A DNA stretch of 64,000 nucleotides from Aphrocallistes beatrix (taxonomy: Eukaryota; Porifera; Hexactinellida; Sceptrulophora; Aphrocallistidae), in assembly GCA_963281255.1 (NCBI GenBank), contig OY725503.1:3348001-3412000 (forward strand), read 5' to 3'. This document shows, in pieces, positions 16,465 through 62,239 of the stretch (its first letter is position 1; each line of letters opens with the position of its first letter). Both the position numbers and the translations under genes were made by a program. The notes beneath the pieces were generated by a model, which was not told the DNA's origin, ran no database searches, and saw nothing but the letters and a program-made list of their open reading frames with translations.

Positions 16465-19400
16465 TGGAATTCGGGGCAAATTATTTGTAAGTATTTTTTC
16501 AATAAACTGATAAAATCCCATTTGAAAAACTCATTCACAATTTCACACCCCATGGAATTCCCATTCCCATGTCAACCCTGTTACGTGTCTCCATTCCCCA
16601 GTTATAATTATAATAGTATATCCATAAATGGTTAATCATAGAACCATACTTTTTAGTCAATTAGTATAAACATTATCTCAAACGCTTAATATATATATAT
16701 ATATTGGTCACTTGACTATATTTTGAAATATTTTTTCCTAGCAACGCAGGAATGTGTCAAGAATGTAGCAACATTCCATACTCAAATATTTTTCCTAATC
16801 ACATTGAGTGATTCCTTGTTCGAGAGAGATTTACTTATCACAGCTAATAATACTTGGGAGTATTGTGAAAAATCAGGTAGTTTAGAAGGTCGATATGTGC
16901 ACCCAGCTAGCTGAGCGGGAATCGAACAAGGGGTCTCGATATCGATATGGTTAGGGAAAAAATAAGGGAAAAATGAGAATGGAATGGAATCCTGACACAT
17001 TCCTGCGTTGCTAGGGAATTCAAATATAGTCAAGTGATCACTTAAACGAAGAGAAATTTTACGCTGATTACGAATATCGTAACTGTAGAAGTTTATGCAT
17101 TTTAACACCTTAAAGTGTGCCCGAATGTGGCACTTAAAGTGGCATTTAGGGATATTCCACCGAAGGGATCTTTGGGGTTTTTAATATGTTGCTTAACCCC
17201 GCCTATACCAGGAATGTGTTGCGCCATTTCCTGTTTAAGCCATTTTGGGCGGGGAAGCCATATAAATTTGGTGTCCAGACTATAAATAGAAAAGATCCCA
17301 GGTAAAAGTGTCATTAAGTACCTTCCCTCGTTCATTTACCATTGAAATAAATTATGTTGCAATTTGTTCCAACTGGACCAAAATGTTTTCGTAGATTGAC
17401 TGGACTATTATATGCAGGTGAATTATAATGCGAAAGTTGACAACGGGATAAGTGGACGTTATGTACATATATGTATAACGCTGTTAGCATCTCATCAACA
17501 GAGTATTTTGTCACTGGCTCTGACGAGAAATATCAAATCATAACAGATTTATAACATCATTATCGCATTTTTATAATTAGAATTTTTGGGCATAGCCTGC
17601 CATTATAATTGATAAAAAGTTCCAATTTAAATGACAAGTATATAATCCTTACTGGATGATACTATCATGATCCGAAATGATAAATCATTATTAGGAGTTA
17701 TAATTAAAAGAAGGAAATCATTAAATCTTGTGCCATCATGATGATTTAGCATATTTTTAAATTTTCAAGTAATTATCTTTTTTAAACTGTGGCTATGGGA
17801 GGTATTACTGCCGGGTATCACACTCATCTTAGAACTGTGCACCTATACTATTATTATATAGGATCATAGATCCTAAAGTATATACATAGGATGGGAAACA
17901 CATTAAAAATTGTTTGTCTCAGTTTTGTTTATTCATTTGTTTCCTAATTAGTGAAGTCAATGCAGACGGAGACACAGCTCTGCACCTCGCACTCAAGCTT
18001 CCAAATTTTAACGTAACTGAAAAGATCCTGGAGCATAAGGATGCAGGGAAATTAGCTACAATTAAAAATTATGAAAATCTGAAACCGATACAGTTGGCAG
18101 TTAGATACAATAAAATAGATGCAGTAAAAAGGCTGTTTGAGGCAAGTGAATCTTGTGAATCAAATTCCTGCCAAAATTTAAAGGACGAGATGTCTAATTT
18201 ACTACATATTGCAGCTGAATATGGACACGTGCATTTAGCAAAATTAGCGATTGAACATGGTTATAAAAAAGGTGAGTTTAATGCTTCGTTTATAACATCC
18301 TTATACTAGCCATTTACAGTATAACGAAATGTCAGAGTTCCAATTAAGGCGATATCACTTGTAGTATTGTAATGGTACATTAGGACAGTAGGACAGTATG
18401 GTACATTAGGACAGTATAACTGGATATTTCATTCTATCACTCAACTGTAAACTTGCATTCTAAAGGTTAATATATTAATTTATGTAGGTAAAAGCATCAT
18501 CAATGATTATAACGAAAACAATATCACTCCACTCCACCTGGCAGCCAAAAACGGTCATAAAGAAGTGGTGAGGCTTCTACTAGACTACGGAGCAATCCTA
18601 CATCAATGTCCTATTGGCGGTACGCCTGTAGTATCAGCAGCATATGGCGGTTACCTCGGGATAGTTCAGACTCTCATTGAACTATTTCCATATTCCAAAG
18701 ACTATAATACTCGATCTGGTGACTCTCCTCTACATGTAGCAGCGATTAGAGGCCAAGCAGACATTGTGGTGTACCTATTAGAACAAAATGCCAAGATTAC
18801 ACTGAATAATGACGGTAGTACGTTCTTCTACGATGCTGTCATTAATGATCATATTTCTGTTGTACAAAATACGCTGAAACACAGACGTTGGAAAGAGGCA
18901 TTAGATATTCTGCCAACTTCAAGAGAACCCCCGTTCGTGGCTTTGATCATTCGCATGCCATGCTTTGCTAAATTGGTGTTAGACAAATCGATCGAGAAAT
19001 CATCTTTCAGCGATGCGAAGAGGGATTACTGGATTAAATACGATTTTAAATATTTATTTCCTCCGCTTAACATTCCCTTAATAGCCCGATCTGAAAGCAA
19101 TTCACTCACAGACAGCGACACGAATTATAACTCTATTAGTTTCTCCATCAGCACAATGCTACAACCAACTGAGAGAATGTTCGAATACAAGAAAGTGGAT
19201 AAAATGTACATCTTGGACAAGATGAGGAAATTTGACCGTGGACAGCTGCTAACTCATCCCTTAGTCACCCACTTCTTGCAGGTTAAGTGGTATCGGTATG
19301 GCAGTAAATTCTATGGGATCATTCTGTTCACATTTCTCGTTTATTTATTGCTTCTCTCTGTCTTTCCTAACATCTATCAACCAGGAGAATCTTGTGAGAG

Positions 19401-20504
19401 TGACAGTTATACGTCTCTAAACTTTTCGAACCGTCAAAATACAACCTATTACAACACAGTTTCTTCGTGTATCGATCAGTGTTGGAGGCTTTGTCATTGA
19501 TCTACCTAAGCCTATTCTTAATTGGATCATTCTTGGCGAAGCACAAACTGTGTTATATTATCTCGGTTCATTCTATCGTCGAGTTACTATGCTATGTGTC
19601 CACACTCCTTTTCCTCCCAATACACACTCCTTGCTTAAATTGGGGAGCAGGTGCGTTTGCGCTATTTTTCGGTTGGACAACATTCGCATTTTACCTCGGG
19701 CAATATGGATTATTTGCTCTTTACACTCGGATGCTGATCGCCGTATTTAAAACGGTTATTTTTATGCTCCCGCTAGTGTGTATCATTCTTCTATCATTCG
19801 CGTTTGCATTCCACATCTTCCTGACTTCAGTCATCACAGAGCATGAGGAGCTAGAGAGGTCGTTACTCATGGTGTTCCAAATGCTGATTGGAGAGCCAGG
19901 CTTCGATGTAGTCACTGACTTTGCTTTTGGAGTTGGTCAACTTCCAAACAAGGGCATTATTTATTTCTTCTTCGTGCTAGCTGGCTTGGCGGTTACCATA
20001 ATGCTGACCAACCTCCTAATCGGCCTGGCTGTAGGGGATATCGCAAACGTTAGGGAGGGCGCTTACCTTCAGCGCGTGAAGGATCGAATTATCTTTTTCG
20101 GTAATATGGATAGGGCGATTCCTTCATGGATAAAACGAGATGAGAATAATGTGAAAATTTTAGTTTATCCAAATAGACACAGATTAGGACAAATCTATAT
20201 AATCTGGAAGCAGATATTAGAACTTGTATACCCTGCTCACAAACAAGAAATAGATGAAGTATTGGTGAACGATGAACAAGCACTGGAGACGAGATTGGAA
20301 TCAGTAGAGAGGGGAATAAACGAACTGAAAGAGATGTTTGCAAAACAATTTAACGGACCGAGTAATGTATGGAATCAGGAGCAAAAACTAGAGCAGAAGG
20401 CATCAAAACCATATGATCCAATTGGAAGGAGCTTTTTAAAGGTTAATAAGCGTACCAAGCGGAATCCATTGATTCAATTTAGCTATTCACATGATAATGT
20501 GTAG
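16371..20504 (+). CDS. TRPA-like ankyrin cation channel (three exons, one frame change)
   Basis: A non-selective cation channel of the TRPA type, expected at the plasma membrane in sensory-type signalling. Exons: 16371-16486 (acceptor TTCGTTTTCAG, donor GTAAGT), 17952-18271 and 18488-20504; phases join correctly. Ankyrin repeats are seen as GDTALHQAVRINAGTFISTL, DGDTALHLALK, NITPLHLAAKNGHKEVVRLL and GDSPLHVAAIRGQADIVVYL. Then come the S1-S6 helices, the pore segment (FQMLIGEPGFDVV) and the S6/TRP-like stretch LTNLLIGLAVGDIANVREGA, closely like TRPA1. A C-terminal coiled coil (ETRLESVERGINELKEMF) follows, as in TRPA tetramers. The frame changes near 19461-19500, in the S1-S2 loop region. No short GT-AG intron restores it, so the copy is broken or the assembly has an error. 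N-terminal exons upstream of 16371 were not found; family members usually have many more ankyrin repeats. Confidence 0.8.
16704..17045. mobile_element. MITE in TRPA intron 1
   Basis: Inverted ends GGTCACTTGACTATATTT and AAATATAGTCAAGTGATCAC, with CTAGCAACGCAGGAATGTGT and its complement inside both arms. An AT dinucleotide run precedes it. A B-box-like GTTCGATTCC on the minus strand near 16920 has no A box partner. Related CAACGCAGGAATGT words occur in the hairpin at 44077-44730. Confidence 0.65.
17175..17312. repeat. dispersed repeat (CCATTTTGGGCGGG family)
   Basis: Contains GTTTAAGCCATTTTGGGCGG, GCCATATAAATTTGG and CTATAAATAGAAAAGATCCC. Copies lie at about 34040-34145, 56280-56360 and 60995-61090, and a reversed one near 31510-31615. 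No terminal repeats or pol III boxes were seen, so the class is open. Confidence 0.5.
17490..17790. mobile_element. decayed Helitron-like fragment
   Basis: In intron 1 of the channel gene; shares the order of landmarks of the Helitron-like family in decayed form (GTCACTGGCTCTGA, then TATAATTAGAATTT, then ACTATCATGATC). Low similarity, assigned by pattern order only. Confidence 0.3.
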
Positions 20505-25482: not shown

Positions 25483-26852
25483 TTAATTAGAGGTAAGTTT
25501 AAGTATCTTCCTTTGAGTATCTTTGGGACAAGAGGTGGTAGAAGTAATATTCTTGGCCTTGTTGTTGAGTAAACAGTTACTTGAAGTCATTAAAATACAA
25601 CGTAGCATATCTTTTCCGTCATTACAGCAATCAGTACACTCAAAATCCCAATCCTCACATTCTTCATCCTCAATTTTTAGAATAGCCAACTGAGCCTCAT
25701 CCAAATGCTCCAGGTGCGTATCGAAACTGGGCGAGTGGACACATGTTTCATCAACAAATGCCTGTACATTCGGACACCCTCGTAGAGCCTGGTCTACCGC
25801 TCGCTGATAGGTAGCCTGTGAGTTTGACAATCCAAAAGGCATGCGGTTGAATTCAAACTGGCCGCGAGTTGAAACAAACGCAGTGAACTCCCTATGCTTT
25901 TCCTTCACAGGAACGCTCCAGTATGCGGATGCCCCATCCAGTGTAGAGAATACAGTTGCCCTCACATCGTTGAGATCCCGGTAATCTACGGAAAATCGAT
26001 GGGTCCCGTCCTTTTGCTTCACTAAGATCACTCGAGTCGCCCAAGAGGAAGAAGAGGGACGTATGATCCCATTCTCGAGCATTTCATCTATCTGCTTGGA
26101 TACCTCCGCCTCAATTTCCGGAGAAACACGCAACGGCCGGCTTCTGATCGGCCGCTCATCCAGAAGAGTGATAACGTGTTCCGCGGTTCCAATTTCGCGC
26201 GGGCTCTTCGGGTTCTCCGCGAAAACGTCTTTCCATCTCGACAGCACCTTGCGTATGGCTGTCTCTTCTCGCGGTGATAGTTTCGGGTTTATATCGAACC
26301 TGGCCTCCAAGCTATCTCCCTCCTTTCCCATCTCAGTCTGCATAATTTCTGCTCTAGTCGCCGCGTATCCCCCGCGTGCCGCAGCTAAAGAGATTTTCTA
26401 ACAACCACCTAGCCTAACTCTCATGTTTTCCCAATCGAAAGTAGTATTCTTGAAGCGCGCGAGGAACCTTCGCCCCAATATAACCACCCTATTGTTAGTA
26501 TCGAGTACTTCGATTTCGTGTTCTAGTGGTCGACCATCCCCCACATCTATCGCCACGCAGGCCGTACCCAGACCGCAAGCGCTGTCCGCCCTAGCCCATA
26601 CACTTGACTGTACTTTGTGCTGTAAGGGATATTCATCTTTTGTATAGCGAACCTCGTGTCCTCTTTCGCCATATTTCGCACAGTGCCGTTCCGGGCATTG
26701 GGCCATAAAGTGCCTGTCCGAGTCGCAAATAAAGCACCGACCCTTCTTAGGGAATTGGCTTGCCGGATACTTGTAGGTCCATCCCGCCTCCCCATTGCCC
26801 CTTTGCTGCGTGGCGCATCCTTATATGTATAGAAACAGTTGAGAGCTAACAT
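25483..26852 (-). mobile_element. Ty3/Gypsy retroelement fossil
   Basis: An old LTR-retrotransposon piece on the minus strand. Parts seen in order: a zinc-knuckle-like stretch, a protease-like stretch and a partial reverse transcriptase with family blocks such as EMLENGIIRPSSSSWA and FEFNRMPFGLSNSQATYQ. Integrase and RNase H are absent, and no long terminal repeats were recognised on either side. It is broken, with a few breaks, and incomplete. It lies between P-like terminal repeats. Confidence 0.75.
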
Positions 26853-27186
26853 TCAAGAACAAATACAACGTAAAAGTAAAAAGGAACCATATAGCAGAGA
26901 AAGAAAATAGCCATAACATTGATATTAATTTATTGGAACGTAGACTAGTTTCATATACTTAGGCATCAAACAAATGATGAATTAGATTAGGAACAAAAAT
27001 TATTTATTCATATTATGGGTGCGTAAGAAAATCCACTTTATCTTATCCCTGGTGCCATGGAAAATTGTTCAGTGAAAAGGCCTTATTGTAGTAGGCTATG
27101 ATGTATGATACTTTTCTACGCGCCCCGTCATGTCCCGCGAAATCAACGGCGCGTCAGCTTATCATGGCCAAGTCGACATGTATAAT

Positions 27187-27759
27187 ATGAGGTGCCTGCA
27201 TTTGTTAGAATTTTGAAGTTGTCATTTGTTTGAATGATCTCAACAGTCACTTGTTAGAATCGTTTTTCTAGACTACTGTCACTTGTTAGAATCGTTTTCT
27301 AGACTACTGTCATTCCTTGTTAGAATCGTTTTTCTAGACTACTGTCACTTGTTAGAAATTTAATATCAGATATTTTCCAAGACATTGATTCCCATAAGTA
27401 GTTTCCTGATTTAATTAACATACATTAAAATATTGAATATTGGATATGAGAAATAGTTTTGAGATTCCGTTCTATGTAGTAGTACGTATATACTTTTAGG
27501 TGAGATGAATTAAGATTTAATTGATTTTAAGTAAGCTGAAACATAAATCAAGAATAAATAAATTGAACTATGAATATGATGAAAAAACATGGAAATTTAA
27601 TTGACTTCAGCTTGTAAATATTTGGAAACGGCTTTCGATTATAGAACGGCATACAGGAGGACAAGGGTACTAAAAAACGATTCTAACAAGTGACAGTAGT
27701 CTAGAAAAAAGATTCTAACAAGTGTCAGTTGAGATCATTCTAACAAATGACACTTCCCC
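27187..27759. mobile_element. foldback iteron element 1, 6-bp TSD TATAAT
   Basis: Starts ATGAGGTGCCTGCATTTGTT, with TATAAT at 27181-27186 and again at 27760-27765. The left arm carries about four units of roughly 33 bp around GTCACTTGTTAGAATCG and TTTTTCTAGACTACT; the right arm carries two to three inverted units. A 250-bp AT-rich centre has no ORF. Architecture and terminal words match 59819-60324 and 61443-62010. Confidence 0.8.
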
Positions 27760-27765
27760 TATAAT

Positions 27766-28720
27766 ACAGTCAAACCTCTTATAGTGAGCTCTCAGCTGGC
27801 GGATGGCATTCTTCACTACTGCATCGTCGCTCTGGGTCCGTGTAGGATTCACACAGCGATTCTCTGTTGATACCTACAGCAAAAACTTGTCTTCCATTTC
27901 CCTGACTTTTCCTTTCTGACCGAAATAGTGTATAGTATACGTATTCCTCTAGCTCGAGAATCCATCTGGCGGATGTTCTTCGTGAGTCTTTTTGGTTGCG
28001 GAGCCACCTTAACGGACAAATAGCTGTTTTTTTGTCTGAGCCAACTCTGGGATATGCGCCCGATCCCCCTCTGAAATAATTTGTCCCCCCCCCGGCCCTT
28101 ATATTTTGAAATATTTGGACCCCTCTCAGAACTCATATTTAGTTATACTGAAATATATGTATCACTCTGAAATGATTGGTCTCCCTTTGGTGCTGGAATT
28201 ATTTATTCCCTCAAATCTTATTATTTATTCCAAATATTATTTATTCCAAGAAATATTATTGTAATAAAACACGACTGAATTGCAGCTAAGAGGAATACAG
28301 TAGAACTGCTATCGGTCCCTCTATATAGTGGCCACTCGTACATAATGGTCACTTAAAATTAGTCCCGTGATCGACTTTCCTTGACCTCTGTTTAACGGTG
28401 GTTCATATTTGGTATGGTGGAAATAGTTCGAAAAAAACCCCGGAAATAGTTGACATAAAAACCACCATTAATCCTAATAATAAAAAGTCGATCTATTCCC
28501 TAAATCTGCAATTCTAACTATTTCCTTTTTCGAAAAGTCCAACAATTTCCGCATTACCCATATATTTCAGTATAACACCGAAATATTGGTTCCGAGGGGG
28601 TCCAAATATTTCAAAATATAAAGACTGGGGGGGGATCAATAATTTCAGAGGGGGTTCATATATTCCAGGAGAAACCATTCTGTGGGGGATCCAAATATTT
28701 CGTGGCATTGCCCTACCTGC
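27766..28720. repeat. Tigger-like end and a G-run inverted repeat element
   Basis: CAGTCAAACCTCTTATAGTG at 27769 is a Tigger-type left terminus. Arms at about 28055-28150 and 28575-28700 are inverted: TTTTGAAATATTTGGACCCC on one side and GGTCCAAATATTTCAAAATA on the other, each next to a run of seven or more C or G. The boundaries of the second element are approximate. Small ORFs here are translations of the repeats. Confidence 0.45.
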
Positions 28721-35509: not shown

Positions 35510-38500
35510 TTAAATCAAGCTACAACATTTGTTGATGTTATCTGATTTTTTCCTTTTATTGCGGTTCTTTAGGAAAGCTCTTATTACCTCTTCAAAAACT
35601 TCCTTTACTCCTGTCCGAGTTAGAGCTGAGCATTCTAAGTACTTAGCTGCTCCCACTTTCTCCATCATGGATAATCCCTCTACGTACGAGATGGGTCCTA
35701 ACTCCCTGTCTCTTAAGGTCTGTACAAACTCTGCATCCTCTCGTAGGTCCAGTTTAGTCCCCACTAGGATTATGGGGGTGTTAGGACAATGATGAGACAC
35801 TTCTGGGTACCACTACACAAGGAAGACATGGATGGAATTATAATAATTTGCTATTGTCAAGCTTGGTCATGCGTATCTTATCCTTAAGTCGATGCATAGC
35901 ATTCTATACACGAAGGCAATGGCGCGCTTAACATTTTTGGGACCAGGGATTGGTTAGTTATTTAGATTGATGTTGATATTTTCTACATCGTCTTGGGAAA
36001 TTTGAAATTTGATGTTAAATTTATTAACTCCACCACTTATAAGACATCTTATAAACCATATCATAATATTTTTGAATCCATACTTTAATATTTCACTTTT
36101 ACGTTTTATTACAATTCCAATATTCCATTAATATTTAAGAAATTGACGCCATAATGATTGTGAAAGAAGTTTATCAATCATTATGTCTAGTGATGATTTA
36201 ATTAAAGTATAATACAAAAGCTAAATAATATTTATTTTTAATTAAACATTATTTGACTTGTGCAGATTTTACTTCGTGATATCACTTCCCACATCAAAAC
36301 AATCAAGTACAGCTTGGAATGCAATTTGTTTTTTATCCACCCATAATGTATATTTACAAAATTTATATCAATACCTTAGAACGTTCTATTTTCATTACCA
36401 CTTTCATCCTCTACTTACTACTTTCAACTCAGGGCCGTAGCAAGCTCATGAAAAGTGGTACGGCCATTCTTGGTGGATCAGACCGATCGTAGCGAGCAAC
36501 CATATGGGGTCTTGCGGGCTTGCCCGCCACAAATATTTTGAACCTTGTAGGCTCAAATATCGATATCAGCAGTTCTTATCAAGCAACAATAGTTCATTTT
36601 TGTAAATAGTACTATTAGGTATTTAGGTTCACTTATTGAATACAAAATCATTAAGATGTAAGGGCCGTAAAAGTGGTACGGCCTTGTTTCAACTACAACT
36701 TATTTTGACTATTCAGATGTCCTGTCTTGTCCCAGGCTGCAGATCTAACCATTTGGGCGAAGATAAATCAACTTCAATTTTTAATTTTCCCAAAGATGAG
36801 TGATTGCGAACAATGGTTCAGAGCCATTCCCAGACCAAGGAAGGATTATGAAGACAACAAACATATGAAGTACTCAATTGGAATTATTTATTTATAGTTT
36901 TATACCGTATATAGAATTCCAATTGTACCTATAGGTATGCATCAATTCGTAACAATTGGCTAAATCTAAACGATTTTGAAAAGACATATATCCCAAGTTT
37001 GATGACTGTACAAAATATTTACTAACACAATCCGCAAATCCATCTTGCACTCAGTTAAGAATTTCTGTACCTACTGCCAATATTATTTTGAATGCCACGC
37101 AACTGACGAAGTCTAGTTATCCCCCAATAAGTTATGCAGCATTTGACGATCTTAGAACCCTGTTCAAAGCTAACAAATTTTATGTCATTAAGAGAGCCCC
37201 AAAATTGACCTCGAAATCATGTTGGCCATCTCATTTAGAGCGACAAAATGTAAACTTGGCTTTGAAAATTTTTCATGAGTCTACAGTTGCAGGTCTTTCT
37301 AATTTTATTAATCATACAAACATTGGTAAAACCCATCAAACCGTTGATTTCCCCAACTTGATAAATCATATCTGGAGCATTTTCAATGTTAATTGGGTAG
37401 GAAAAGACATTCGTTTCAATAATCCATATCTAGCCCCACTGCACCACAACGACGAAAGATTATTGTTTTTGGAAAGCATCGTTAAATGACTTAATTGTTG
37501 GAGAGCTATTTCATCAACTAGGGGTAAGCTTACACCTCAACGAAATATTCAGTAAGATCCTATTTTAAGTCGTCGATTTTATGAGGGACCCTGCCGTAGA
37601 AAATTAGTTGAGATTACACTACTTGAAATTGAGAGAAATTCCAGCGATATCTGGAGGGGGGTGGTGTGTGTGTATGACATCAAAATTGGATATTCTTAAG
37701 AAGTTATCCACAACAGTCGCAAATTGCATTTTATCTAAGAAAGTAAAAAAAATTATAAACACTGTTATTGATCGCGATAACTTCAGAAATTTGCTTCCTA
37801 ATTCTTCTTTCTTCTAGATATTCAACTTAAATAGTGCCAAAGTTCACAACAGCTTTTACCAAAACTAGACGATGATCGAAACCAATTAGTTAAGAAACGC
37901 AGCTCTCACAGCTAGGCGAGGACAGAATCTTTCTATTTCAAGAAATACTATTCATCAATACATACTAAATACTACATTCTACATCATTGTTATTGCTTGT
38001 TTTATTATTACTGTACTTATATTTATCATTCTTCGTTTGTAAAAAAAGGTGTAGAAAACATCTCTGATATGTTTCTAAATTATTATAACTTAATGGTAAA
38101 GGCGATAAACCTAGTTATTATGATCGAATATTCACCAAAAACAATATATATTATAATCGCATATGGCAGATTCCTTAATTAACTAACCAATCCCTGGTCC
38201 CAAAAATGTTAAGCGCGCCATTGCCTTAGTGTATAGAATGCTATGGTTGATGATATTGTCTACTTACATTGTTTCTCACGTTCGCTAAAGAGCATGGTGA
38301 GATAAGAGAGAAACATACGAGGAACACATCTGTTTGGGGGTAGGAAAGTGGCCGCAAACGGTCGTATTCACTTTGTCCAGCTGTGTCCCATGGACAAAGC
38401 AGCACTGATAGACCATCTATATTAACGAGCACACTATAAGTATCAAATACCATTGGAATGTAGTCGCTTGGAAACGAATTGGTGCAGTAGCTTGCGATGA

Positions 38501-41500: not shown

Positions 41501-44500
41501 GCAACATCTGCAAATTGTGGCACCTTGTGAAATTTTACTAGATATTACTCGCTTACATTAAGTATCCTACTAAGACTCATATAGGCCATGGACGGCAGAT
41601 TGCAAGTGATGAACCAGGTGCTGACTGAAAGATGGATTTGTTATTTGCCCTAATACTGCCTGGGATTATCCATTTCCGGGAGATCCCCAACTTACCAAAG
41701 AAAAATTTTCAAATTTTTCACAAAATCTGGGAGGGAGAATTCGAATCAGAGTTGCACGCGGGTCGAAATTTGTAACCGCGGCCCGCAATTTTAAGTTACC
41801 AACTATAAACATAATAAGTAGACTACACTTAGGGAATCCTTTTATGGGAGTGAATTTCTGTAAACACAAATAAGTGGAAACTAACAAAGTACCATTTACG
41901 TAAGTATTCCTTAATTGGTATCTCGTGACAATTAAAAATATCGTCTCGGTTGCCATCGTGGGGAGTCCTGCCAAGATTTCCGGCCCGCGGAGCCCGCAAA
42001 CTATTATATTCGGCCCGCGTGCAACTCTGAATCGAATGCACTGAACCTATGGGAGTTGAATGTGGACAAGTACAATTTGTTTGCTCGTCCCAATGTAGCA
42101 TCAAACTAAAGTGTGTAAGGGATCCATTTTTTCAGAGCTATCAGAATTGATAGGTTGCGTCTAATATGAAACATAGGATATCCCAGGTTTATCTCCTTCC
42201 CGTCCCTTTAATTTTATCCCCACAAAAACGAACCTCTACAAAAGGGGAATTCATTGATCTTAGGTAGGAATTTTCAAATAATTTCCCCTCCGAATTTCAT
42301 ACTTATAAACCCTTTGCTCATCCTTCTTTGTAATCCCATTGGAAACTAAAAATCACTAAAATATGCCCTAAAGTATAATTATCAATAATGTCTATAAAGT
42401 TCATATCAATTTACATATACAATCTGTCACATAATTATTTAGAATTTTTCAATTTTAAGCCAACCATTATTATGAAGGTATTTCATAATCAGGGTTACTA
42501 AAACCATTTTCTTCACAAAGAGAAAAGTTTATGAATAAGATATTTTGATTTATTTATTCTCTAAGATTAATATTTCAAAAAAATTTATGATGCTACCTCA
42601 TAATAGTATTCTTTATTGCTTATACATATTTTTACTTATCTTCTCGAATATATTTCTACATAATAGCTGACTATTAACGCCCAAAAATGGCTCAAATGAA
42701 AAAGCGTGAAGATATAAAGTTATTATTAGACACTAACAGGTTTTCGCCAAGACAAATCGCCCAACAGTTGGATGTCGGAGTGGCTACTGTCTACAATGTG
42801 AGGGCCCGCTGCAACAAGAATGTTGGATTATGCCACTCTAAAGGCGCAGGAAGGTCAAATACCCTGAGAAAGTCTATTTGCAGATCAATCATTCAAAAGA
42901 TAAGAAGAAAACCATATCTATCCCTCCGAACACTAGCCAAAAATGCTTCCCCTCAAGTCTCCCATGAGACTGTCCGCCGTGCTTTATCTAGCCTCGACTA
43001 TACCAAACGTTACCCATCTAAATGTCCAATGCTTAGTGAAAAGAATCGATTAACTCGTCTTTCATGGGCAAAGAAGTTTAAATACCCTAAAAAAGCATGG
43101 GCACGAACAGTTTTCTGCGATGAAATGTCAATCTGGCTCTCTCGAGGGAAAGTAAAATGTGGACAAAAAGTGACAAAAAAATGATAGCTCTAACTACCAA
43201 ACACGCTCCGAAAATCAACGTGTGGGCAGCTTTTAGCTCAATGGGTACATTCCCAATATGCATATTTACGGATAATATGAACAGCCAGATGTTTATCAGG
43301 ATTTTGGAAGGTCATTTGCTGAGACAAGCAGAAATTTTTTTTGAAAATGAGTGGCGATTGGTCAAGGATAATGACCCAAAACATACCGCGAAGACCGTCA
43401 AGAAGTTTATCTCCGAAAAAGTCCCAGAAGCATTACCTTGGCCCTCTCAGAGCCCGGATATTAATCCGATCGAAAATCTTTTTGGATGGCTTAAGCAAGA
43501 GCTCTTAAAGAGATCTCCTTCTACTATCAGAGAACTGAAAATGGAGCTAGAAACCATCTGGGAAAACATAAGTCCGGAGTTTCTTAAGCCCTACTGGGAT
43601 TCCATGGTCCGTAGGTGCAAAATGGTTATCGAAAATGAGGGTTACTCGATTAATTATTGACTTAGAATGTTTGTACTTTATATAGAATTCAATATAGATC
43701 AGTTGCTAATTATTTCAGTGGCTCCAGCATGATTGAGAAATTCTAAATAATTATGTGACAGACTGTATACAGTCTGTCTCAGAAAAATCTGGAATTTCGA
43801 TTTATATACAGCCATAATATTCCTTTTATCAAAGATAGTGATATTGGTTAATTCTCTCTTCGAATATGCGTGTAAAGAGTAGTCTTCATTCTAAGCATCA
43901 TTTTAAAGGTTTTTTCCAAAATATTTGCTCTTTAATTATGATTACGTCATCATAACTTATTTTTGCTCCTATTTATTGAACCATAGCCTACTCTAATAAT
44001 GCCTCACAGTAAATAACCAAGGATGCGGTAATAGCCGAATGGATTAATACACGGTTACCCTAAAAGCGTTAACCATGGTCATTTTAAGCACTATTTTGGC
44101 AATTTTCTAAGCTGATTTAACCCTATTTCTAAATGGTATCAAGGTGTGATTTTTGTATAGAACCAAGATTAGTACGAGTTGATTTGAAAAATTTAGAATT
44201 TTTCAATGGAATGTTGCTACATTCCTACGTTGCTATAGTAAACCATTTTGGTCAGTTTGAGCCATATCCTGCAAACTGTAAGAACTAGGTCTTCAAATTT
44301 GATCGTATTTGATAGGCAATTGACTACTTCCTATTAGGTAATAATACAATTTAAACTTCTAAATGCACAGACTATAGAGTTATGCGACAATTTAGTGTTT
44401 TGGCCACATTCTTAAAATCAACCCATAACTCAAAACTCGTTGAATTTAGAAGTTCAAGTTGTATTATCACCTAATAGGAAGTAGTCCATTTCCTATCAAA

Positions 44501-59100: not shown

Positions 59101-61354
59101 TTAAATCAAGCTACAACATTTGTTGCTGCTATCTGATTTCTTTCTTTTGTTCCGCTTCCATAGCGCAGCTCTTATTGCCTCTTCAAAAACTTCCTTTACT
59201 CCTGTGTGAGTTAGAGCTGAGCATTCTAAGTACTTAACTGCTCCCACTTCTTCCATCATGGATAATCCTTCTAAGTACGAGATGGGACCTAACTCCCTGT
59301 CTCTTAAGGTCTGTACAAACTCTGCATCCTCTCGTAGGTCCAGTTTAGTCCCCACTAGGATTATGGGGGTATTAGGAGAATGATGAGACACCTCTGGGTA
59401 CCACTACATAAGAGGACATTGATGGAATTAGAATAATTTTTTATAGTCCATCTATTGTCGAGAAAATGTCGAGAAAACTGTGATCGTAAAACTTTTGGGT
59501 GTGGATCCAGGATGGGATTTTGCCATTTTCTGTGAACATTCCTTCCATTATCCGCAAGAAAAAAACTACTCAGGACAAAAAAATAAATAGCAAATCAACT
59601 TGAGTATTTGAAATTGAAATATTATATATTAAATGACCAGCTAATACTAATACAAGATCAAAGCATAGCCCTCTGTATATAAGGCCTGCAATCTAAATCT
59701 CAAAAATGGACCAGGGATGCGGTCGAAGATGGTTGATCTGCCTTAAATCATACCATCGGCTGGCGTGGGATTTTTATACCGCATCCATGGTCCATTTTTT
59801 TATATTTAGATAGCAGGCAGAGGCGCATTCATTTTTCGAATCGATTTTTGGAATATTGTCATTTGTCCGAATCGATTTTTAGAATATTGTCACTCGTCCG
59901 AATCAATATTTGGATTGACTGTAACTTGTCCAAATGGGAACGCTACATTTTTCAGAATCTTGAAGTAGTCATTAGTCAGAATTTCCTTTGCAGGCGTTGG
60001 TCAGAATAGGATTTCTAGTAGATGGCACTCAACCCCCTCGTCTCGAAATTAAAATGAAATTAAAATCCCTCACACTTTTCTGATATATATCAAAATGTTG
60101 ACTTTCAATCTCATTCGAAAAAAAAACTAAAATACCTCAACCACCTTCTCACGTAACTAGAGTAGCACTCGCATTCTGACAAAGTCAGAACTCGATAAAA
60201 TTTATTCTGACAAGCACCAGCAAAGGAAATTCTGACTAATGATTACTTCAAGATTCTGAAAATGCAGCGTCCCAATTTCGGACAAGTGACAATATTCCAA
60301 ATTACGATTCGGACAAATGCTGCGGCAGGCCTTATATACAGAGGGCTATGCTCAAAGATACTGTTCACTTACCTTGTCCTTCACGTTCGAAAATGAACAA
60401 GGAGAGATAAGAGAGAAACAAATGAGGAATACATATGTATCGCAGTAGTCATTGACCCGCAATCGGTCATAATCACTCCCTGCAGCTGTGTCCCATAGGC
60501 AAATGCATGCTGAAATACCATCTACGTTAACGTCCACACAAAAACCACCATAAACAACTGGAATGTAATCGCCTGGAAACGAATTGGTGTGATAGCTTGC
60601 AAGGAGACAGGTCTTGCCAACCGCTCTGGAAAAAGGAATTTAACAACCTTAAAAGTACCAAAATCATAGGCGCCCAACTCGGGGGGCAACAATGGTACTT
60701 AATGAGAAATTTAGCTACTAGTAATAGGCGGCGCGCTCTTATTTTTGAGGAGCGCACTCCTTTTAATAAAATTAGTTCCTACAATTTCCCCTGATATCTA
60801 ACAATTTTTCTCAACATTTCCTACTGAAGTTCAATTAGGGTAAATTAAAATTAGAATATGACATAAAAAAGAAACTCAGATCTTATTCTTTTTTAATATT
60901 GTTTGAATTTTATAATAAATTTCATCGCATTATCAATATTCTCCAAAAAAATTAATTATTTTAAAGGATCGGGATCCTATTATAGGTAATTATCCCTAAG
61001 TTGCCCCAGAATGTGTTACGTCATTTCCAGTTTAAGCTATTTTTAACAGGGAACCCATACAAGTTTGGGGTAGTTACTAAAAATAGAAAAATCCCACGAC
61101 AAATTAGGGGTAAAGAGCGCGCCCTAATTTTCAGGAGCGCTTAATGCTCTGGTAATACTCGTAGAAAACTAATTTTGAGTAAATTATGCTATCAGGCAAA
61201 TCCTGCTAGATACAAAGTACATACATATACATCCCTCCCATAAATAGCAAATGAATTGTTTTTCTGTGTCTGTAGTATTGTTACTACCCAATCGTACAAA
61301 TTATTCAGTAATAACTCACTCATCTCCAGCCACAACACATTTGAATGAATTCAT
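59101..61354 (-). CDS. Rac-like small GTPase R5 with altered catalytic residues
   Basis: Exons: 61320-61354 ([12 protein letters not shown]), 60373-60625 and 59101-59403; 196 residues, frame open, splice sites canonical. Joining gives GDEAVGKT, so the P-loop G12 is glutamate. Switch I reads [11 protein letters not shown] (T35 to V). Switch II reads [19 protein letters not shown]60 to A, Q61 to G, and the usual RPLSYPQ is lost. The last exon is conserved, with TKLD, ECSAL, a polybasic run and CAAX CSLI. A protein still made would probably hydrolyse GTP poorly or not respond to effectors and GAPs normally. Intron 2 carries a P-like MITE with a foldback element inside. Confidence 0.75.
59664..60350. 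mobile_element. P-like hairpin MITE hosting a foldback element
   Basis: Ends CATAGCCCTCTGTATATAAG and its complement. Removing the insert 59819-60324 plus one copy of GCAGGC leaves a MITE of about 175 bp: left arm with ATGGACCAGGGATGCGGT, right arm with ACCGCATCCATGGTCCAT. Flanks share TCAAAG. It lies in R5 intron 2. Confidence 0.75.
59819..60324. mobile_element. foldback iteron element 2, 6-bp TSD GCAGGC
   Basis: Starts AGAGGCGCATTCATTTTTCG, with GCAGGC at 59813-59818 and 60325-60330. Units ATTGTCATTTGTCCGAATCG and TTGTCACTCGTCCGAATC repeat on the left; inverted GATTCGGACAAATGCTGCG closes the right. A second inverted pair (CTTGAAGTAGTCATTAGTCA; TGACTAATGATTACTTCAAG) is nested further in. 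Confidence 0.8.
60630..61315. other. R5 intron 1 with a GAGCGCGCC inverted motif and dispersed repeat
   Basis: GGCGGCGCGCTC at 60727 with TTATTTTTGAGGAGCGCACTC, and AGAGCGCGCCCTAATTTTCAGGAG at 61114 (written here in two parts of the same motif), suggest an element of about 470 bp starting TAGGCGCCCAACTCGG. The GTTTAAGCTATTTTTAACAG repeat is at 60995-61090. Confidence 0.35.
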
Positions 61355-61442
61355 TCTGACAACTAGCTTGAATAGATTGTACAAGTATCTACAAAAGATA
61401 CATAGTTGAAACTATTATTTATACAACAAAATACCTATCTCT

Positions 61443-62010
61443 TAGAGGCGCATGCATTAGTTCGAATTCTGTATGTAGTCGTTAGTTCGAATTCTGCATG
61501 TAGTCGTTAGTTCGAATTCTGCATGTAGTCGTTAGTTCGAATCGAATTTGGACATGTAGTCGTTAGTTCGAATCGAATTTGGAGATGTAGTCGTTAGTTC
61601 GAATCGAATTTAGTAATGTAGTCGTTAGTTCGAATCGAATTTGGTAATGTAGTCGTTAGTTCGAATTAGAATTTGGACATATACTCATTATCATTAGCTC
61701 TCTATAAGACACTCAACTACCCCCTTCGTTCAGAAATGCTTTTTTCATCCTCAATTTTCTACTATTCTCTAAAGAAAATGCTTCTTTTCCCTCAGTTCTT
61801 ATAACTACTCTTCCAAATGCCACTCAATGACAGTAATACATTGAAAATCTATTCGAACTAATGCTGCGCCTCCACAAATTACAACTCCCTATTTATGCCC
61901 AAATTCGATTCGAACTAACGACTACATGCCCAAATTCGATTCGAACTAACGACTACATGCAAAATTCGAACTAACGGCTACTTTGAAATTCGAACTAATG
62001 CTGCGTCCCC
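61443..62010. mobile_element. foldback iteron element 3, 6-bp TSD ATCTCT
   Basis: Starts TAGAGGCGCATGCATTAGTT and ends AACTAATGCTGCGTCCCC; ATCTCT at 61437-61442 and 62011-62016. The left arm has eight to nine tandem units of 25-31 bp around TAGTCGTTAGTTCGAATC; the right arm has three inverted units plus an extra internal end-like block (AACTAATGCTGCGCCTCC at 61860). It sits in the 5' flank of R5; R2 and R3 flanks show the empty site. Confidence 0.85.
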
Positions 62011-62239
62011 ATCTCTCATTCGCATAATTACAATTATTATCTAAATTAAGAATATTTAGGAATAAAATATTCATTCAGCATAATCTACAGCCGAGTATGT
62101 CTAAAAAGTTGCATTTCATTGGGAGCGCAGAAATTCCTACACTGATATCAGAAAATATCCTACACTACACTCAATCAAGGGATTATCTAGTAGCGCGAGA
62201 CGCTCCTTTAGGCGTATGATTCTAAGCCCGAAAGTGTTT

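Follow-up and report, generated by a model that had tools for sequence, protein, structure and literature searches.

Foldback elements of Aphrocallistes beatrix with core-sharing tandem arms as probable non-autonomous transposons of the Mutator superfamily

The window, that is, the whole 64,000-nucleotide stretch of Aphrocallistes beatrix DNA that was analysed, carries three foldback elements. The initial annotation had located them from the letters alone, and the positions given there hold to within 2 bp; the termini, the inverted arms, the tandem units and the common core described there are likewise real. The features of the focal element and of its two companions are as follows.

61437..61444, + strand: left target-site duplication of the focal element, ATCTCTTA, 8 bp, one mismatch against the right copy
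61445-62010: focal element (an earlier start at 61443 was corrected)
61445..61467, + strand: left terminus, GAGGCGCATGCATTAGTTCGAAT, 0 mismatches
61445..61680, + strand: left arm, with the terminus core and 7 further cores at spacings of 25, 25, 25, 31, 31, 31 and 31
61681..61850, no strand: non-coding centre, from the frame scan and the A+T content
61851..61873, − strand: inner right-type terminus, GGAGGCGCAGCATTAGTTCGAAT, from the terminus scan; an inner copy is also present in seven other focal-family loci
61899..62010, − strand: right arm, from the core spacings and the inverted-pair alignment
61988..62010, − strand: right terminus, GGGGACGCAGCATTAGTTCGAAT, 0 mismatches
62011..62018, + strand: right target-site duplication, ATCTCTCA, from the flank comparison
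27189..27759, + strand: element 1, a foldback with 32-bp units and the core GTCACTTGTTAGAATC (an earlier start at 27187 was corrected)
27181-27188 and 27760-27767: duplications of element 1, TATAATAT and TATAATAC, one mismatch
59820..60324, + strand: element 2, a foldback with 31-bp units, the core GTCATTTGTCCGAATC and an inner arm pair of a second unit type; its right end is apparently truncated

Elsewhere in the window, we observed a Tc1-like transposase in two overlapping frames (42678-43660; HTH_Tnp_Tc3_2 in the first, the second recognised by eye), a frame with a reverse transcriptase domain representing a retroelement fragment (25483-26397; PF00078), and ankyrin repeats followed by a channel region matching TRPA1 (18451-20504).

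The two ends of an element are unequal, the left one being GRGGCGCATGCATTWG and the right one GGGGACGCWGCATTWG, and the terminal word itself holds the iteron core, as had been annotated. The focal unit is composed of the core GTCGTTAGTTCGAATC and the spacer GAATTTGG. When the core GTCNYTWGTYMGAATC was searched for with at most 2 mismatches, 26 matches were found in the window, 24 of them within the three elements; 1.6 are expected by chance, and the largest number in a shuffled sequence was 7. For the focal element, the longest ungapped inverted pair spans 83 nt and matches at 96%; element 2 reaches 60 nt (92%) and element 1 reaches 83 nt (94%). The centres had been described as AT-rich and free of open reading frames. 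The latter part stands for the focal element, which no stop-to-stop frame longer than 45 aa overlaps; the former does not, the A+T contents of the centres (0.66 for the focal element, 0.65 for element 2 and 0.73 for element 1) being little above that of the window (0.64).

Inner termini form a separate observation. An inner right-type terminus with a conserved flank occurs in all 8 of the focal-family copies examined (61851-61873 in the focal element; L002-L008). Inner mirrored right-type termini are paired with a second unit type in element 2 (59936-60275; inner core CATTAGTCAGAAT) and in its relative L016 (338-649), and no duplication was seen by eye at the mirrored pair of either. It looks as if both arms had been rebuilt jointly.

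According to the initial annotation, all three elements are flanked by exact 6-bp direct repeats. For the duplications we examined 30 elements, namely the 8 best focal-family matches (L001 being the focal element), 20 elements in 19 chosen loci, and elements 1 and 2. The 19 loci were chosen from the listed termini, L009-L018 being picked for having both ends listed; the sample is one of few-mismatch termini with partly pre-paired ends and is not random. L028 (C2:4568399) was dropped from the count, since the partner of its left terminus is absent in the 9.2 kb downstream, and the left boundary of L006 was moved one base inwards after inspection of the flank. With repeats anchored at the termini and at most one mismatch allowed, duplications touching the termini were found in 25 of the 30 elements (8 bp in 19 and 9 bp in 6; 18 exact), against 3 of all 870 mispaired flanks at the same score. 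A 6-bp duplication anchored in this way fits none of the 30 (control, 3/870). The five elements without a touching duplication are L003, in which an 8-mer sits 3 bases away from the terminus, L004, L019a, L019b and element 2, whose flanks are AGCAGGCA and GCAGGCCT and whose right terminus seemingly lacks its last bases. The 8-bp duplications adjoin GAGG and CCCC at the focal element, where ATCTCTTA and ATCTCTCA are a mutated 8-mer, and at element 1. The 6-bp repeats noticed at the focal element and at element 1 are the unmutated parts of duplications that are 8 bp long in both cases. The copies lacking consistent 6-bp duplications, which the annotation had itself named as evidence that would count against it, did turn up. 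Its view that the elements transpose survives on other grounds, because 8- or 9-bp duplications at 25 of 30 dispersed copies need insertion events. An additional element on C9 has an exact ATCTCAAG on both sides. The L019 region (C8:4327500-4337000) carries two similar short foldbacks 2.3 kb apart without clean duplications, and this pair is perhaps a segmental duplication.

The arms of the same 30 elements were characterised by the core-to-core distances of up to 80 bp (n = 288). Spacings of 24, 25, 31 and 32 account for 248 of these distances (48, 52, 107 and 41, respectively; others, 40), and, going inwards from the end, a spacing of 24 or 25 usually comes first, often with 25 once more after it, before 31 or 32 is repeated. 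Among nine unit consensuses, which rest on 1 to 41 units each (two on one unit and one on two), columns 2-18 have a between-family identity of 0.74, columns 19-30 one of 0.47 and columns 25-30 one of 0.28. From the composition of columns 19-30, an identity of 0.31 would be expected for the last range; the column ranges were picked after the units had been seen. Every one of the nine consensuses has a T in columns 22 and 24. The units were collected by a pattern of 11 core bases with at most 2 mismatches, so the conservation of the core is partly selected, while the divergence of the spacers is not. The annotated contrast between differing spacers and a retained core is borne out: one core, set at preferred spacings, recurs in all nine unit types, whose spacers have diverged, and this is one of two less ordinary features. 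The retention of the core across unit families fits the earlier idea that the arms may have grown by amplification of a putative enzyme-binding site. The word GTTCGAATC, which we take to resemble a tRNA B box, was considered as such and rejected, since the other unit types lose the likeness (GTTAGAATC, GTCCGAATC); ARAGORN found no tRNA in the window, and an Rfam search of the window at the gathering threshold gave no matches.

The genome searched comprises 100.5 Mb in 28 contigs. DNA searches with the focal element, element 1 and element 2 gave 183, 182 and 137 matches, respectively, often in several pieces per copy, from 40 scored candidates for each query. For the left terminus word, 411 matches (199 + 212) were obtained when up to 3 mismatches were allowed, and its reversed control had none; the right-type word has 201 + 156 at up to 2 mismatches (control, 0 + 2); the two sets may overlap in places. 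The three window elements are thus multicopy.

Longer relatives encoding a transposase, for which the initial annotation had proposed to look, were found, and the transposase is that of the MULE (Mutator) type. Searching the genome for the MULE domain yielded 121 matches, and one of them, on C3, is only 1 kb away from one of the listed termini. This coding relative (L079/L080) has the left terminus GGGGTGCATGCATTAGTTCGAATC, an arm of 31-bp iterons with the unit consensus TTGTCATTAGTTCGACTCGGTTTTACTAAGG, and a right arm ending in the right terminus GCAGCGTCCCC; a MULE/DDE transposase lies between these shared ends, in an element whose units are not of the focal type. The MULE domain (PF10551, 39.6 bits; cut-off, 27.6) is in a 432-aa frame, in which D197, D259 and E377, picked by eye, form a candidate catalytic triad; that of Muta1 is given as D214, D283 and E419 in the available text of its report (PMC5225508). 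A 140-aa frame, overlapping the MULE frame in another frame, has a RING finger (PF13920, 43.5 bits; cut-off, 27). In the part of the literature available, FLYWCH together with MULE defines the Phantom subclass (PMC3169594); the FLYWCH match of L079 reaches 20.7 bits, below the Pfam cut-off of 23.6. The L079 flanks, TACTTGAT and GTCAAAAG, show no duplication, and an NCBIfam search with the two frames gave no matches.

The foldback L012 connects this coding element with the non-coding ones. It aligns to positions 1-338 (89%) and 2236-2624 (85%) of L079, its first 79 bases are 100% identical to the end of L080, and the 8-bp duplication around it is exact; L012 is the L079 element minus about 1.9 kb of coding interior. 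A second C3 copy (L083) encodes a protein 97% identical to that of L079 over residues 1-348. Its right-type terminus, the only end read, lies beside the 5′ side of the gene, opposite to L079, which suggests that the interior was flipped between the arms. A run of 200 N, being an assembly gap or a masked stretch, occurs inside its long iteron array (L083:363-562). On C4, a decayed MULE (L081) is preceded by the element-1-type terminus GGGGCGCATGCATTTGTTAGAAT and three more cores; its right end was looked for there and not found, and a Tc1-like transposase sequence, recognised by eye, follows directly downstream (L081:1718-2500).

The association between the termini and MULE genes was also examined genome-wide. 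The L079-type iteron word TTGTCATTAGTTCGACTCGGTTTT has 136 matches at up to 1 mismatch (control, 0). Among the 25 places obtained from 100 listed matches, some are within 1.5 kb of 5 MULE loci, and such places flank 3 of these loci on both sides in inverted orientation. Listed termini are within 2.5 kb of 5 of 81 MULE entries. Shuffling gave 0.78 on average, and 4 of 2000 shuffles reached 5 or more; this test drew on the 200 listed terminus matches out of 768, and the lengths of five contigs in it were guessed. For two of these 5 entries, the gene is not clearly enclosed by the terminus: the C8 terminus belongs to a neighbouring foldback, and that at C4:4597812 meets the match edge.

Several other candidates were set aside. 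A MULE-RING pseudogene directly adjoins a focal-type terminus at L053, but the arm of the latter points away from the gene, and no duplication was seen by eye in the flanks; this locus was rejected as the focal parent. At C9:2832384, the supposed coding element is a separate foldback (L086/L087) with the exact ATCTCAAG duplication, and a second, divergent terminus leads towards the MULE match. Merlin-type transposases also make 8-9 bp duplications. As a source they were rejected, since their 20 matches (PF12762) have only weak terminus-like words, with 5-6 mismatches, at L073 and L077. In the scan of 50 loci with 1.5-kb flanks (30 MULE and 20 Merlin-type), a true terminus was found at one, the MULE locus L053, and weak words with 5-6 mismatches occur at the MULE loci L029 and L050. 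Among the coding copies found in the genome search, none has units of the focal family itself, and the link of the window families to the MULE is drawn from the shared termini, the core and the similarity of the arms, which is 74% between the focal and L079 arms across 224 bp.

The second less ordinary feature is that a RING finger often accompanies the MULE. With the L079 RING frame as query, a protein search returned 104 matches, which merge into 97 loci. A match follows downstream within 1 kb, on the same strand, at 37 of the 81 MULE loci obtained by merging 106 matches; the remaining 44 have none, and no match lies upstream or on the other strand near any of the 81. At C9:2278403-2279947 (535 aa) and C1:9739935-9741527 (545 aa), the MULE and RING matches have the same stop-free frame length, which suggests that the two are fused in one frame at these loci, though the RING match of the latter is weak (29% identity). 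The solved structures nearest in sequence to the L079 RING are those of the CGRRF1, MGRN1, cIAP, MDM2 and MYLIP RINGs. In the available text of one survey, the most complete MULE of the Ghost clade, whose ends are not known, is given a 420-bp RING ORF, and a C3HC4 ring finger is named for one Phytophthora MULE (PMC6446971). No further reports of a RING with a MULE were evident from titles and the beginnings of abstracts, subscription journals lying mostly outside this scope, and we claim no priority; RING as a whole word is absent from the main text of a 2026 arthropod MULE survey (PMC13359780).

From these results, we consider the three elements to be non-autonomous foldback transposons of the Mutator superfamily, moved via a staggered cut by the MULE transposase of longer relatives (probability, about 0.92). 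The duplications (8 bp in 19/30 and 9 bp in 6/30) fall in the 8-11 bp range reported for MULEs in the accessible part of the survey (PMC6446971), and a terminal motif followed by arms of variable tandem-repeat number, as in foldback-type MULEs, is present. The initial annotation had left the superfamily unnamed, with Dada and IS3EU mentioned among those that make 6-bp duplications. Dada makes duplications of 6-7 bp and IS3EU of 6 bp, and exact 6-bp matches do flank the three window elements. Since anchored 6-bp duplications are unsupported, with 8 or 9 bp fitting 25 elements and 6 bp none (control, 3/870), this pointer is unsupported too, and the MULE domain in a coding relative whose ends are of this kind also speaks against it; we regard such a membership as highly improbable. 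Equally improbable is an origin of the elements by recombination alone, as satellite tandem arrays and hairpins that are not mobile units. The variation of unit number between arms and the L019 pair, with its two similar copies 2.3 kb apart and no clean duplications, would agree with it, but duplications at 25 of 30 dispersed copies require insertion.

A slightly better, still very poor, prospect is a Galileo-like foldback of the P superfamily, having transposase-binding repeats in long arms and moved by a THAP transposase. Such foldbacks make duplications of 7-8 bp. A weak P-type transposase fragment is present in the window (36980-37489; GTP-binding domain PF21788, E 0.00069, below the cut-off), but no terminus or core match occurs within 7 kb of it in the window, and the coding element that has both termini and iterons (L079/L080), the one coding copy read whole, carries a MULE domain and no P-type THAP transposase between its ends. 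According to the consulted portion of its description, Galileo resembles the present elements in its foldback-like arms, the tandem repeats of which hold transposase-binding sites located from a footprint, and differs in its THAP/P transposase (PMC3688188).

Among the known systems, as far as the available text of the reports extends, the window elements, which belong to several Mutator/foldback families, are closest in plan to Muta1 and Tm1; the plan is thus not unusual. Muta1 of Aedes aegypti, a type 2 foldback whose MULE DDE transposase carries a FLYWCH finger at its N-terminus, likewise has duplications of 8 or 9 bp, a short terminal motif followed by tandem subterminal repeats, and numerous non-autonomous derivatives of variable repeat number; in contrast, its repeats are 12 bp long with 3-4 bp spacers (31-32 bp units here), its terminal motif is an imperfect 10-bp palindrome (left and right ends unequal here), and here the FLYWCH match is weak and a RING often follows in the coding relatives (PMC5225508). 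Tm1 of root-knot nematodes shares the asymmetric terminal motifs (A1/A2), the variable number of tandem repeats, the 8-10 bp duplications (mostly 9), a MULE coding copy (with FLYWCH, for which the match here is below the cut-off) with many non-coding derivatives, and one element with A2 at both ends; most of its units measure 14 bp, each species has a single core consensus instead of nine unit types with a common core, and no RING is mentioned for it in the part of the report available (PMC3169594). In the Ghost element that is most complete, the transposase ORF is truncated and the RING ORF has the same size as the 140-aa RING frame of L079, a likeness by description rather than by DDE-domain phylogeny; in the accessible text, TIRs are reported as undetected in the Ghost clade, though some TIR lengths are tabulated for a cnidarian sub-group, and duplications as not found for its most complete element, whereas both ends and duplications are defined here (PMC6446971). 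Tandem-TIR MULEs also occur in plants, according to the available part of another report (PMC3310237).

The preferred Mutator reading implies the following mechanism. Each element carries two short unequal terminal motifs and arms of a repeated core, approximately TTGTCAYTWGTTCGAMTC followed by a T-rich patch, spaced at 24-25 bp in the outer part and 31-32 bp in the inner part. A MULE transposase supplied by longer relatives elsewhere in the genome, many of which have a following RING, would most likely bind the cores via a putative N-terminal FLYWCH-like finger, pair the two ends, and cut at GRGG/CCYC. The elements would then move in trans by cut-and-paste, with an 8- or 9-bp staggered cut at insertion; this mobilisation is well supported for the L079 family and probable, by extension, for the three window families. 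Non-coding copies would arise by loss of the coding interior, and the arms may grow, shrink and become homogenised when units, or the two arms, undergo unequal exchange or conversion with one another. A further and more doubtful proposal is that the coding parents constitute a MULE lineage in which the set of FLYWCH-like, MULE and MDM2/cIAP/MYLIP-type RING domains is common and combined with foldback arms, that the core, spacing and spacer may act as a two-part address, in which a docking site common to at least nine sibling unit types is joined to a part specific to the family, and that the RING, its activity in these elements being presumed from the domain match, could serve as a ubiquitin ligase on the transposase or host chromatin.

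By counted duplications and a coding relative, foldbacks that had been left unclassified are placed in the Mutator superfamily. They join the foldback arms of Tm1 and Muta1 with the RING-bearing MULE of the most complete Ghost element, features found reported apart in the accessible parts of those sources. In 2013, the repeats of Foldback and Phantom were called untested as transposase-binding sites, in the section of the source available (PMC3688188). The sibling families of this genome, in which the core is common and the spacers are not, provide a natural series for testing the repeats in that role.
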